A DNA stretch of 64,000 nucleotides from Henriciella sp. (lineage in GTDB: Bacteria; Pseudomonadota; Alphaproteobacteria; Caulobacterales; Hyphomonadaceae), in the NCBI GenBank assembly GCA_030066975.1, contig JASJAO010000004.1, positions 310,001-374,000 on the forward strand, given 5' to 3'. Shown in pieces: positions 13,506-16,809 of the stretch. The position numbers and the translations under genes were made by a program. Within the stretch, counting starts at the first letter, position 1. Each line of letters opens with the position of its first letter. Under the pieces are notes generated by a model that was not told the DNA's origin, made no database searches, and saw only the letters and a list, made by a program, of their open reading frames with translations.

Positions 13506-13674
13506 GCACGGTTCGAAGGCGCGATATAGCGGCCACACCCAGCGCTTGCAAGCCGAATTTTGAAGGCAGATTGACCTTTTTGCAGTGCCTCCGCGATTTA
13601 CCCGCCCAGGCCGCTTCTGTCGCAGGCAGAGCATCAAAAAGATCGCAAAATCGCCTTCATTCATCTTTCATTAG

Positions 13675-13687
13675 GCACGAGTCGTGC
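13675..13687. promoter_or_regulatory. Palindrome upstream of the small high-affinity-SD ORF
   Basis: GCACGA-G-TCGTGC is a perfect inverted repeat around one base, containing a GAGTC (GANTC) site that could be a CcrM methylation target in this lineage. It lies about 65 bp upstream of the small ORF at 13753, a plausible position for an operator or the first hairpin of the transcript. No confident -35/-10 pair was identified. Confidence 0.4.
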
Positions 13688-13752
13688 TTAGTTGAAGGCG
13701 TCCGAGGACTGCGCGTCCCGGATTTGTTCAGCAACTGAAAGGAGGTGATCCA

Positions 13753-13833
13753 ATGTCAAGTGAGAAACCAGGTGAGGCGATTGAATTCGTTTGTATTGGA
13801 TATCTCGTGGAGCAGCCTCTGCGAGCCATCTAG
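13753..13833 (+). CDS. Small ORF (26 aa) with ribosome-binding site complementary to the whole 16S tail
   Basis: An ORF of 26 codons plus stop. The sequence AAAGGAGGTGATCC at 13738-13751 is the exact complement of the conserved 3' end of 16S rRNA, and the ATG follows with ideal spacing. The peptide begins MSSEKPGEAIEFVCIGYLVE and ends QPLRAI; it has no signal peptide and no recognised family. The ORF is followed by a small hairpin, a GAGCCG/CGGCTC hairpin and a strong intrinsic terminator, so the unit looks like a short, highly structured transcript that carries one very efficiently initiated mini-gene. It could be a leader peptide, a dual-function sRNA or a short protein. Confidence 0.65.
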   Translation: MSSEKPGEAIEFVCIGYLVEQPLRAI

Positions 13834-13892
13834 ACAGGCACGGCAGCCCTGTTGAACGCTGTCAGAATTCAAGAGCCGAACCGGCTCACGAA

Positions 13893-13926
13893 GGCCACGC
13901 TCTCTTTGCTCAGAGCGTGGCCTTTT
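13893..13926 (+). terminator. Intrinsic terminator after the small ORF
   Basis: A perfect 11-bp stem, GGCCACGCTCT (13893-13903) with AGAGCGTGGCC (13912-13922), encloses an 8-nt loop and is followed by TTTT. A second stem GAGCCG-AAC-CGGCTC lies just upstream at 13873-13887. It separates the small transcript from the TPR-CHAT gene that starts at 13993. Confidence 0.93.
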
Positions 13927-13992: not shown

Positions 13993-16809
13993 ATGAACAG
14001 CCGAGGTCTTATGCGCGGGCGAAATGTCCTGATATCTATCGTGTTTCTTGTTCTGCAGCTGGGCATGGCAACCGCCCAGACCAGCCCCGAGCCAGAGCCT
14101 TCATCAGAAGGCGAGATCGAATGGAGCACGCTCAATCAAAGTGTCCTCAAGGCCTATGAAACCGGGCAATATCGAACCGGGCTTGAGCTCGCGGCGACCG
14201 CGCTTGAAGTGGCTGAAGAAACATTCGGCGATCTGCATCAGAACACCATCACCGCCATAAACAATCTCGCCACTATGAACAGCTTACTGGGGCGACGTGA
14301 CGAGGCCGAACGCCTGTACGATCGTACCTTGGACCTAAGCCGCACCCTGTTTGGCCCCAATCATCCTTCAACCCTTCGCGCCGTCACCAACCTTGCGGTT
14401 CTGTACGACGAACAAGGTCGGTGGGATGACGCCGAAACATATTACCAACTGGCGCTACGGGGGCGCGAGGCGATTGGCGGCAAAGACGACCCGGCCACGC
14501 TCATGACCGCCAACAATCTTGCGACTATGTGGCTACAGCAAAGTCGCTATGGCAAAGCCGAACCCCTGATGCTGGATACGCTCGAGCGCCGAAGGCGCGT
14601 CCTTGGCAAAAATGACCCGGCAACACTGACTTCTGAGAGCAACCTGGCTCAGCTTTACCTCGCCCAGGGTCGAATTGATGAGGCCGAACCGATCTTCATC
14701 CGAGTGTTGCTCGCACGCGAAGTTGTGCTCGGCCAGTTGCACCCGGATACGACCACCACCCTGAACAACATCGCAGCCTTCTACAAACAGCGCGGCAGAC
14801 TTGCCGAGGCCGAACGCTACTTCAACCTGGCGCTCGAGCGCTATGAACAGAGCTTTGGTGCCCAGCACCCTTTGACTCTGTTGGCCCTCAACAACGTCGC
14901 CACCGTACATATTGAACAAGGCAAGTATGAAACAGCCGCTCGGGCTTTGCGCGAGGCGCTGGCGGGCCGCGATGCGGTCTTGGGAGCAATCCATCCCGAG
15001 ACGCTGATCTCCGTCAAAAATCTGGCCGACGCGTACAAAGCACTCGGTCAATACGCCGAAGCTAAGGACCTCTATATACGGGCCCTGCTGACCAGCGATC
15101 TTGCGCTTAGCCCCACTCACCTCGATCGGGCGCTCTATCATGCCGGTTTCGCCGACTTCCTGCTGAAACAGGCTGAGCCGGCCACATCTGCGATTGTGCA
15201 CCTAAAGGTTGCCGTAAACGTCGTTCAGTCGGCGCGAGCCGAAATGGCGGGTCTCAGCAGCGAGACGCAGGCTGCATTCCTCGACAAGAATGCTTTTTAC
15301 TATGAACGGTTGCAGAAGCTGCTCATCGAAGCCGGTCGCTTCGCCGAGGCTGAGCAAGTCGGGCGGATGCTGAAAGAGCAAGAATATTTCGAGTTTATCC
15401 GCCGCTCCACACGCGGCGAAGACCCGCGCGAAACCTTGGCCGATCTCACCCCGTTGGAAAGCCAATGGGCGGATCAATTTGCCGCCTGGTCAGAGCGTCC
15501 GAATAAGATCGCCGTCACCCTCGCCGCGCTGAAGACCAAACAGCGCAGCGGCACCGTCCTCACCGCGCTCGAAGACACCCAATTGACCGACCTGCAGGCG
15601 CAATACGACACCGCCTATGCCGATTACAAACAGCAGGTGAACACCTGGCTCGCCTCGGTTCGCGACTTATCTGACGAGACGATACAGGCCGAGGCCCGCG
15701 CGCTCGAGGCCCGCTTCCACGATGATCTGCAAGGCGAGATTGCCGATATTGGCGATGAGGTCGCCGCTCTGCAGGTGGTCGCCTTCGAAGACAGCCTGCA
15801 CTTCTTCCTGATCACGCCGCGCGCGTTCAAACATATTGAAACACCGGTCAAGCGCGCTGACCTCAATGAGGCGATCTTCGCCGCCCGCCGGGCGGTTCAA
15901 CCCGATCCAGTCAGCGGTTTTCTGGACCCCGATGCCAATGCCAAACTCAAGGCCTTGCACGATCTTCTGTTCGCGCCGGTGGAGCAAGAGCTCGCCGATG
16001 CCGGCACCGAAACGCTGATGTTGAACTTGCAAGGGGCGATCCGCTACGTGCCATTCGCCGCGCTCTATGATGGTGACCAGTATCTGACAGAGCGCTATCA
16101 GCTCGCGCTCTTCACACCCGCCGCCCGCACCCGGTTTGAAGCGGCTGAGGATATGTCCGAAGGCACCGGGTTTGGCGTCACCGCATCGCACACGATTGAC
16201 GGCCTCGGAACCTTCTCTGCTCTGCCCGGCGTCGAGGCGGAGCTTGCAGCCATTCTCGGCAGCGATGAAACGCCCGGCATTATGTCCGGCTCAACCGATT
16301 TGGATGCCGCTTTCACGCGCGCGAGTTTTGCCGACCGCCTGGAGGAAGGCCGCCCGGTCGTTCATATTGCCAGCCACTTCTATATGCGCGCGGGCAATGA
16401 CGCCGATTCCTTCCTGCTTATGGGCGATGGCAGTACGCTGACGCTGGCTGAAATCAACGAAACGGCCGGTCTGCGCTTTCGCGGCGTTGAATTGCTCACG
16501 CTGTCGGCCTGCTCGACCGCGCTGAACAGTCAGGGCGACTTTGATGTCGGCGCTGGAACGGGCGCAGAGGTTGAAGGCTTTGGGGTCCTCGCACAGCGCA
16601 AGGGCGCCGAAGCCGTCCTTGCCTCGCTATGGGATGTCGCCGACACCACAACCTCAATTCTGATGGCGGATCTTTACACAAATCTGTCGGCCGGAGAGAT
16701 GAGCAAGGCCGAAGCCCTGCAGGCCGCCCAACTTGCCCTGCTCGAAGACCCAGCGACCCAGCATCCTTTCTACTGGGCCCCGTTCATTCTGATGGGAAAT
16801 TGGAAATAG
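13993..16809 (+). CDS. Secreted TPR-CHAT protein (caspase-like peptidase fold)
   Basis: A 938-residue protein. A signal peptide or anchor (VLISIVFLVLQLGMATAQ) suggests export. Residues about 45-400 hold a run of kinesin-light-chain-type TPRs, each of about 42 residues, with the recurring pattern LGxxHPxTLxxxNNLAxxYxxQGRxxEAE. A helical linker (about 400-620) follows. The C-terminal CHAT domain (about 640-938) has the caspase-like dyad: H795 in HIASHF and C840 in TLSACSTAL, then the GAEAVLASLWDVAD motif and the closing HPFYWAPFILMGNW. CHAT domains are cysteine peptidases related to separase and caspases; TPR-CHAT fusions are known but their bacterial roles are mostly undefined. The usual HG after the catalytic His is HF here. 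It may be co-transcribed with the FMN oxidase 33 bp downstream. Confidence 0.92.
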   Translation: MNSRGLMRGRNVLISIVFLVLQLGMATAQTSPEPEPSSEGEIEWSTLNQSVLKAYETGQYRTGLELAATALEVAEETFGDLHQNTITAINNLATMNSLLGRRDEAERLYDRTLDLSRTLFGPNHPSTLRAVTNLAVLYDEQGRWDDAETYYQLALRGREAIGGKDDPATLMTANNLATMWLQQSRYGKAEPLMLDTLERRRRVLGKNDPATLTSESNLAQLYLAQGRIDEAEPIFIRVLLAREVVLGQLHPDTTTTLNNIAAFYKQRGRLAEAERYFNLALERYEQSFGAQHPLTLLALNNVATVHIEQGKYETAARALREALAGRDAVLGAIHPETLISVKNLADAYKALGQYAEAKDLYIRALLTSDLALSPTHLDRALYHAGFADFLLKQAEPATSAIVHLKVAVNVVQSARAEMAGLSSETQAAFLDKNAFYYERLQKLLIEAGRFAEAEQVGRMLKEQEYFEFIRRSTRGEDPRETLADLTPLESQWADQFAAWSERPNKIAVTLAALKTKQRSGTVLTALEDTQLTDLQAQYDTAYADYKQQVNTWLASVRDLSDETIQAEARALEARFHDDLQGEIADIGDEVAALQVVAFEDSLHFFLITPRAFKHIETPVKRADLNEAIFAARRAVQPDPVSGFLDPDANAKLKALHDLLFAPVEQELADAGTETLMLNLQGAIRYVPFAALYDGDQYLTERYQLALFTPAARTRFEAAEDMSEGTGFGVTASHTIDGLGTFSALPGVEAELAAILGSDETPGIMSGSTDLDAAFTRASFADRLEEGRPVVHIASHFYMRAGNDADSFLLMGDGSTLTLAEINETAGLRFRGVELLTLSACSTALNSQGDFDVGAGTGAEVEGFGVLAQRKGAEAVLASLWDVADTTTSILMADLYTNLSAGEMSKAEALQAAQLALLEDPATQHPFYWAPFILMGNWK

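Follow-up and report, generated by a model that had tools for sequence, protein, structure and literature searches.

In the 64,000-nucleotide stretch of DNA analysed here (the window), we have identified a divergent homologue of the CC2171 RNA family. The unit is best explained as a free-standing gene that would be expressed as a structured mini-mRNA of ~200-230 nt. Its start site carries the complement of the complete 16S rRNA tail, its short open reading frame (ORF) is under selection, and two helices, P1 and P3, are conserved as RNA. Based on these features, we propose, with a probability of roughly one half, that the function of the RNA depends on its being translated and not on the product of this translation. 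The elements of the unit are as follows.

13661..13692, plus strand: putative promoter with a -35-like CTTTCA and a -10-like GCTTAG, between which lies the palindrome GCACGAGTCGTGC (13675-13687); the upstream block is conserved in the genus alignment.
13701..13722, plus strand: 5' UTR hairpin TCCG...CGGA, from the fold of the window; relatives in the genus have similar complementary ends, as judged by eye.
13738..13751, plus strand: Shine-Dalgarno (SD) site AAAGGAGGTGATCC, complement of the entire single-stranded 3' tail of 16S rRNA, from genome search, pairing energy and alignment.
13753..13833, plus strand: ORF of 26 codons, MSSEKPGEAIEFVCIGYLVEQPLRAI, with stop codon TAG, from translation and from selection on frame and length.
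13756..13764, plus strand: 5' strand of P1, UC...GUGAG, in codons 2-4, from permutation, covariation and the window fold.
13780..13787, plus strand: P2b, AUUGAAUU, a possible partner of GAUCCAAU (13747-13754) in a pairing that would cover the SD and start codon, from partner permutation.
13804..13825, plus strand: P3, a hairpin in the ORF with the conserved core GGAG-CAGC-CUCY, from RNAalifold, covariation and stop geometry.
13885..13891, plus strand: 3' strand of P1, CUCACGA, directly before the terminator, from permutation and covariation.
13893..13926, plus strand: intrinsic terminator with a perfect 11-bp stem (13893-13903 with 13912-13922), an 8-nt loop and TTTT, from the sequence and from covariation of the stem in relatives.

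The 26-codon ORF under the SD site and the perfect 11-bp terminator, both described in the initial annotation of this DNA, were confirmed at these positions. The palindrome that it had placed before the unit is present as well and sits in the likely promoter, but its dyad is kept by only part of the genus; the upstream block as a whole is conserved across the genus alignment, and a consensus scan scored no sigma-70 promoter at 13661..13692. None of 200 dinucleotide shuffles is predicted to fold as well as the 255-nt unit (z -5.7).

The initial annotation did not recognise the unit. When searched with Infernal at an open threshold, it gives a full-length match (1-159) to RF01867, the Rfam entry for CC2171 ('Caulobacter sRNA', function unknown), with an E-value of 7.8e-7 and a score of 38.2 bits, which is below the gathering cut-off of 75 and therefore outside formal membership of the family. 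A match to a known Rfam family in a covariance search had been named at the outset as a result that would speak against the unit; such a match was obtained over the whole length, at a score under the family's threshold. The window copy contains the SD/start block of the family (GAAAGGAGGUGAUCCARUGUC), the helix between the first codons and the segment before the terminator, which is P1 and is part of the Rfam consensus, and the 3' intrinsic terminator. It differs in its first codons, which are AGUGAG rather than CAUUGUC with compensation in the partner strand, and in its start codon, AUG in place of GUG. Since pair letters and register differ, P1 of the window shows several mismatches when aligned to the Rfam model. 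The model detects genes in 114 of the 200 genomes searched in the order, and in 30 of these above the cut-off; of 20 diverse loci taken from other groups, 17 match it, and two loci from other families (L094 and L121) pass the cut-off. Databases list the family as non-coding, whereas the present analysis finds its ORF to be under selection, and the comparative data argue for translation. An RNA of Mesorhizobium, MH_s33, has been listed as an RF01867 match (PMC5596092), and a literature search of main texts found no description of the function of CC2171.

The 14-base site complementary to 16S rRNA that had been claimed for this region is present at 13738-13751 and covers the whole tail, the 16S rRNA of the source organism ending in ...GGCTGGATCACCTCCTTT if its exact mature end is as assumed. 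The only second exact copy of AAAGGAGGTGATCC in the 3.57-Mb genome is the antisense of the 16S end itself, and the chance expectation for 64 kb, both strands counted, is ~0.0005. Predicted pairing of this site with the 16S tail reaches -26.0 kcal/mol, compared with -19.1 kcal/mol for the runner-up among the 2,080 ATGs of the window and -16.1 kcal/mol for the best of the 103 window ORFs of at least 150 aa, which upholds the view that the site goes far beyond ordinary SD sites. The SD block is almost unvarying in 52 divergent sequences. In single-sequence folds, the SD has a mean unpaired probability of 0.43 and is thus paired more often than free; because of this, and because only 58% of loci are expected to form at least three P1 pairs in such folds, the picture of an open SD is not firm. 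In two loci of one genus (L259 and L260) the SD reads AAGGAAGGTGATCC, with an extra A that interrupts the perfect 16S complement, and the remaining unit is apparently intact. With the 16S end of Gammaproteobacteria, a T before AAGGAGG would pair. The idea that the base 5' of AAGGAGG tracks the last 16S base in this class was rejected, this base being mostly A.

Selection on the reading frame was assessed in 105 non-redundant loci whose ORF bodies have under 65% likeness to one another; the start block served to select them, without regard to an ORF. None of them has an in-frame stop codon at +15..+53, compared with 45 and 29 in the other two frames and 35.3 (sd 4.6) in shuffles, and in 94 of the 105 the frame is first closed by a stop codon at +54..+84 (shuffles 19.8, sd 3.8). 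Across lineages the ORF mostly spans 18-28 codons, with 26 the commonest length; within the genus it is constantly 26 codons long, without indels, and its stop codons vary (TAG 18, TGA 5, TAA 3). The start codon also varies in the class-wide list, between ATG, GTG and TTG. Judged by these patterns, the RNA looks translated.

The encoded peptide behaves differently. Across lineages nothing is common beyond the first few residues, which lie in P1, and searches of Pfam, NCBIfam and PHROGs returned no match for the window peptide. Changes at codon positions 1, 2 and 3 within the genus number 29, 31 and 52, and this mild third-position bias suggests some mild constraint on the peptide at that level. 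The conservation of residues between lineages that would define a conserved micropeptide family was not seen, and partial conservation is found in the genus only. In one family (L098, L099 and L102) the ORF departs from the short form: it runs to 56-58 codons and encodes Cys and a hydrophobic segment that resembles a signal peptide. In another (L262-L266) the ORFs have 18 codons (VSREVLENGVGTTWGARL and similar) and end before a GGCAACCC-like stretch.

The main hairpin of the ORF, P3, is conserved as RNA, a point that had been missed earlier. Its covariation is 0.525, against 0.287 in shuffled alignments (0 of 500 as high) and at most 0.252 in slid controls. The hairpin starts in all three frames (35, 13 and 4 sequences), and the same stretch is read as EQPL, WSSL or GAAF depending on the lineage. 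The stop codon, in turn, is located 7-12 nt downstream of P3 in 32 of 52 sequences when the ORF frame is followed, versus 0 and 4 in the other frames; the commonest distance is 9-10 nt (30 of 52), and in the window the 3' end of the P3 core is 9 nt before the stop codon. Since the peptide changes across lineages and P3 is read in three frames, comparison of the aligned loci shows the frame and the position of its end to be kept across lineages, and the amino acids not. The proposal of a highly translated micropeptide therefore stands in part: the open frame strongly supports translation, but lineages differ in the peptide and the frame of the hairpin shifts. The absence of conservation in both peptide and structure had been named as evidence that would count against the unit; the structure (P1 and P3) proved to be conserved, and the peptide, across lineages, did not.

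P1 is a long-range helix that was absent from the initial annotation and has been added by the present analysis. Across loci, it connects codons 2-6 to the foot of the terminator. In a set of 101 non-redundant loci, the pairing energy is -8.75 kcal/mol for matched strands and -5.96 kcal/mol for permuted partners (z -12.7; control window +0.6), in a permutation that ignores relatedness, for which the control window and slid controls compensate partly. Covariation in 43 sequences, picked to span the P1 types, is 0.536 compared with 0.217 when shuffled (0 of 500) and at most 0.127 when slid. P1 pairs in 91.9% of cells in this set and in 84.1% of cells in the set of 52 sequences, which was chosen for full length. 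Its strands vary over a range that goes from UCUCAUUGUC/GACAAUGGA in Caulobacteraceae to UCUAGUGAGAU/AUCUCACGGA elsewhere, and are GUGAG/CUCAC in the window. An additional pairing, P2, in which a segment near +30 (P2b) would bind the SD and start codon, is suggested by partner permutation (z -4.9; control window -0.3) and is the weakest element, with one mismatch in the window copy; it would be incompatible with P1 unless the two formed a pseudoknot.

The element is widespread and almost always present as a single copy in the genomes searched. Within the genus, DNA searches restricted to clear E-values found it in 27 of 29 genomes; in the family, some kind of match was obtained for 93 of 105 genomes, the weaker matches including terminator-only pieces. 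The start block, with up to two mismatches, occurs in 108 of 387 alphaproteobacterial genomes (0 for a reversed control pattern). A model was built from 52 divergent full-length sequences; the window is among them, so its own score under this model is not independent. This model finds the element in 78 of 289 alphaproteobacterial genomes (~27%), at one place each except in one genome. In one order outside Alphaproteobacteria, the element is present in 19 of 29 genomes, at 20 places of which one (L288) is an ordinary gene. Among the matches listed for named genomes are loci titled Gammaproteobacteria, Pseudohongiella and Litorivicinus, titles that may err where they belong to metagenome bins; bins titled Klebsiella, Rheinheimera and Rhodoferax (L140, L171 and L187) are probably misnamed as to organism. 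A distant blastn search gave no match on plasmids, and viral contigs contained no exact match to the start block. The Bradyrhizobium sORF bll1319_ISGA, considered as a relative, was rejected as a dehydrogenase fragment (PMC5082802).

A leader function, one of the options raised initially, is disfavoured because the unit possesses a terminator of its own and has no neighbour conserved across lineages, the largest neighbour family accounting for 10 of 106 loci. Even within the genus, homologues adjoin genes other than those flanking the window copy. The combination of an own terminator with the lack of a conserved neighbour speaks for a gene that acts in trans.

An open frame of fixed length that encodes a variable peptide suggests that being translated, and not the peptide, may be what matters. 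In such a mechanism, the full-tail SD would capture a 30S subunit despite P1 blocking the coding side, and the translating ribosome would then open both P1 and P3. With the ribosome at the stop codon, P3 could refold behind it. The closed state, in which P1 is formed, and the occupied state, in which the P1 strands are free, would thus constitute a switch, and an RNA with two such states might report or titrate free initiating ribosomes in trans, a possibility close to the ribosome-titrating RNA that had been raised among the initial options. Our fuller proposal, which we offer tentatively and with less confidence than translation dependence itself, is that of a widespread proteobacterial RNA acting as a mini-mRNA independently of its peptide: it would capture 30S subunits by way of the complete 16S tail, and its occupancy-dependent structure would let it sense or buffer the capacity for initiation. 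Dedicated literature searches found no description of such an RNA as a decoy or as a dual-function RNA.

Other explanations have to be weighed against this. The unit could be a plain mRNA for a functional micropeptide, with an RNA structure that merely tunes expression or stability, which would account for the strong selection on frame and length, for the 26 codons that the genus keeps while its stop codons swap, for a start site whose predicted SD outranks all others in the window and for the hydrophobic versions of 56-58 codons in a few lineages. We consider it unlikely, though the likeliest of the rivals, given that the residues shared across lineages are limited to the first few within P1, that P3 is read in three frames and that the protein family databases gave no match. 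If instead the 14-nt pairing parked the 30S subunit at the start site and elongation hardly occurred, the whole-tail pairing of -26 kcal/mol and the start of P1 immediately after the AUG would be readily understood; in S. aureus, extended SD-anti-SD helices on the 30S platform stiffen start selection (PMC13009471). Such a pure 30S decoy is improbable, however, since selection for a frame that is open up to a P3-positioned stop implies that ribosomes reach this stop.

It is similarly improbable that the RNA is a non-coding sponge whose SD-like stretch pairs in trans with the anti-SD motifs of other small RNAs (CCUCCUCCC or the Caulobacter SisA-D type). Alphaproteobacterial small RNAs with anti-SD loops do exist (PMC3927594), SisA-D have a sponge of their own in CrfA (PMC12559287), and Rfam types RF01867 as an sRNA, but the open frame, its fixed length and the stop geometry would be unexplained by a sponge, the complementarity extends beyond the CCUCC core to the whole 16S tail, and the element is also present outside Alphaproteobacteria.

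The preferred reading, in which translation matters and its product does not, has partial parallels. Like Pos19 of Rhodobacter and rnTrpL of Sinorhizobium, the element would be a short transcript, first taken as a small RNA, with a short translated ORF. These two reportedly have a functional peptide or an attenuation origin, whereas the present element lacks a conserved peptide or downstream gene and has a fixed structure around the ORF. It shares with the extended SD sites of S. aureus (PMC13009471) a pairing that goes past the SD core toward the start codon, and differs in covering the whole tail, in being one dedicated RNA of Proteobacteria and in having a blocking helix directly after it. 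Schrader et al. (2014, PMC4117421) reported two earlier predicted ncRNAs of Caulobacter to be translated and ncRNA regions generally not to be; in Sinorhizobium, annotated sRNAs harbour one third of the translated sORFs that were newly found (PMC10117765). CC2171 was already known as an uncharacterised family; new are its breadth, the selected ORF without a conserved peptide, the geometry of P3 and stop codon and the complement of the complete 16S tail. A family filed as a Caulobacter non-coding RNA is far broader, extending into Gammaproteobacteria, and is a warning that translated RNAs can hide in 'sRNA' families. A dedicated RNA that complements the full 16S tail would be a direct cellular readout or buffer of free ribosomes.

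Downstream of the unit, 13993-16809 of the window encodes a large protein with, as judged by eye, tetratricopeptide repeats followed by a CHAT-type protease domain; it is not conserved beside the element. The window copy has no neighbour resembling the rescue factor ArfB; 16 of 26 genus homologues (for example L009) lie near a gene, ~0.9 kb upstream of the element, for a GGQ-motif protein that, by eye, resembles this factor.
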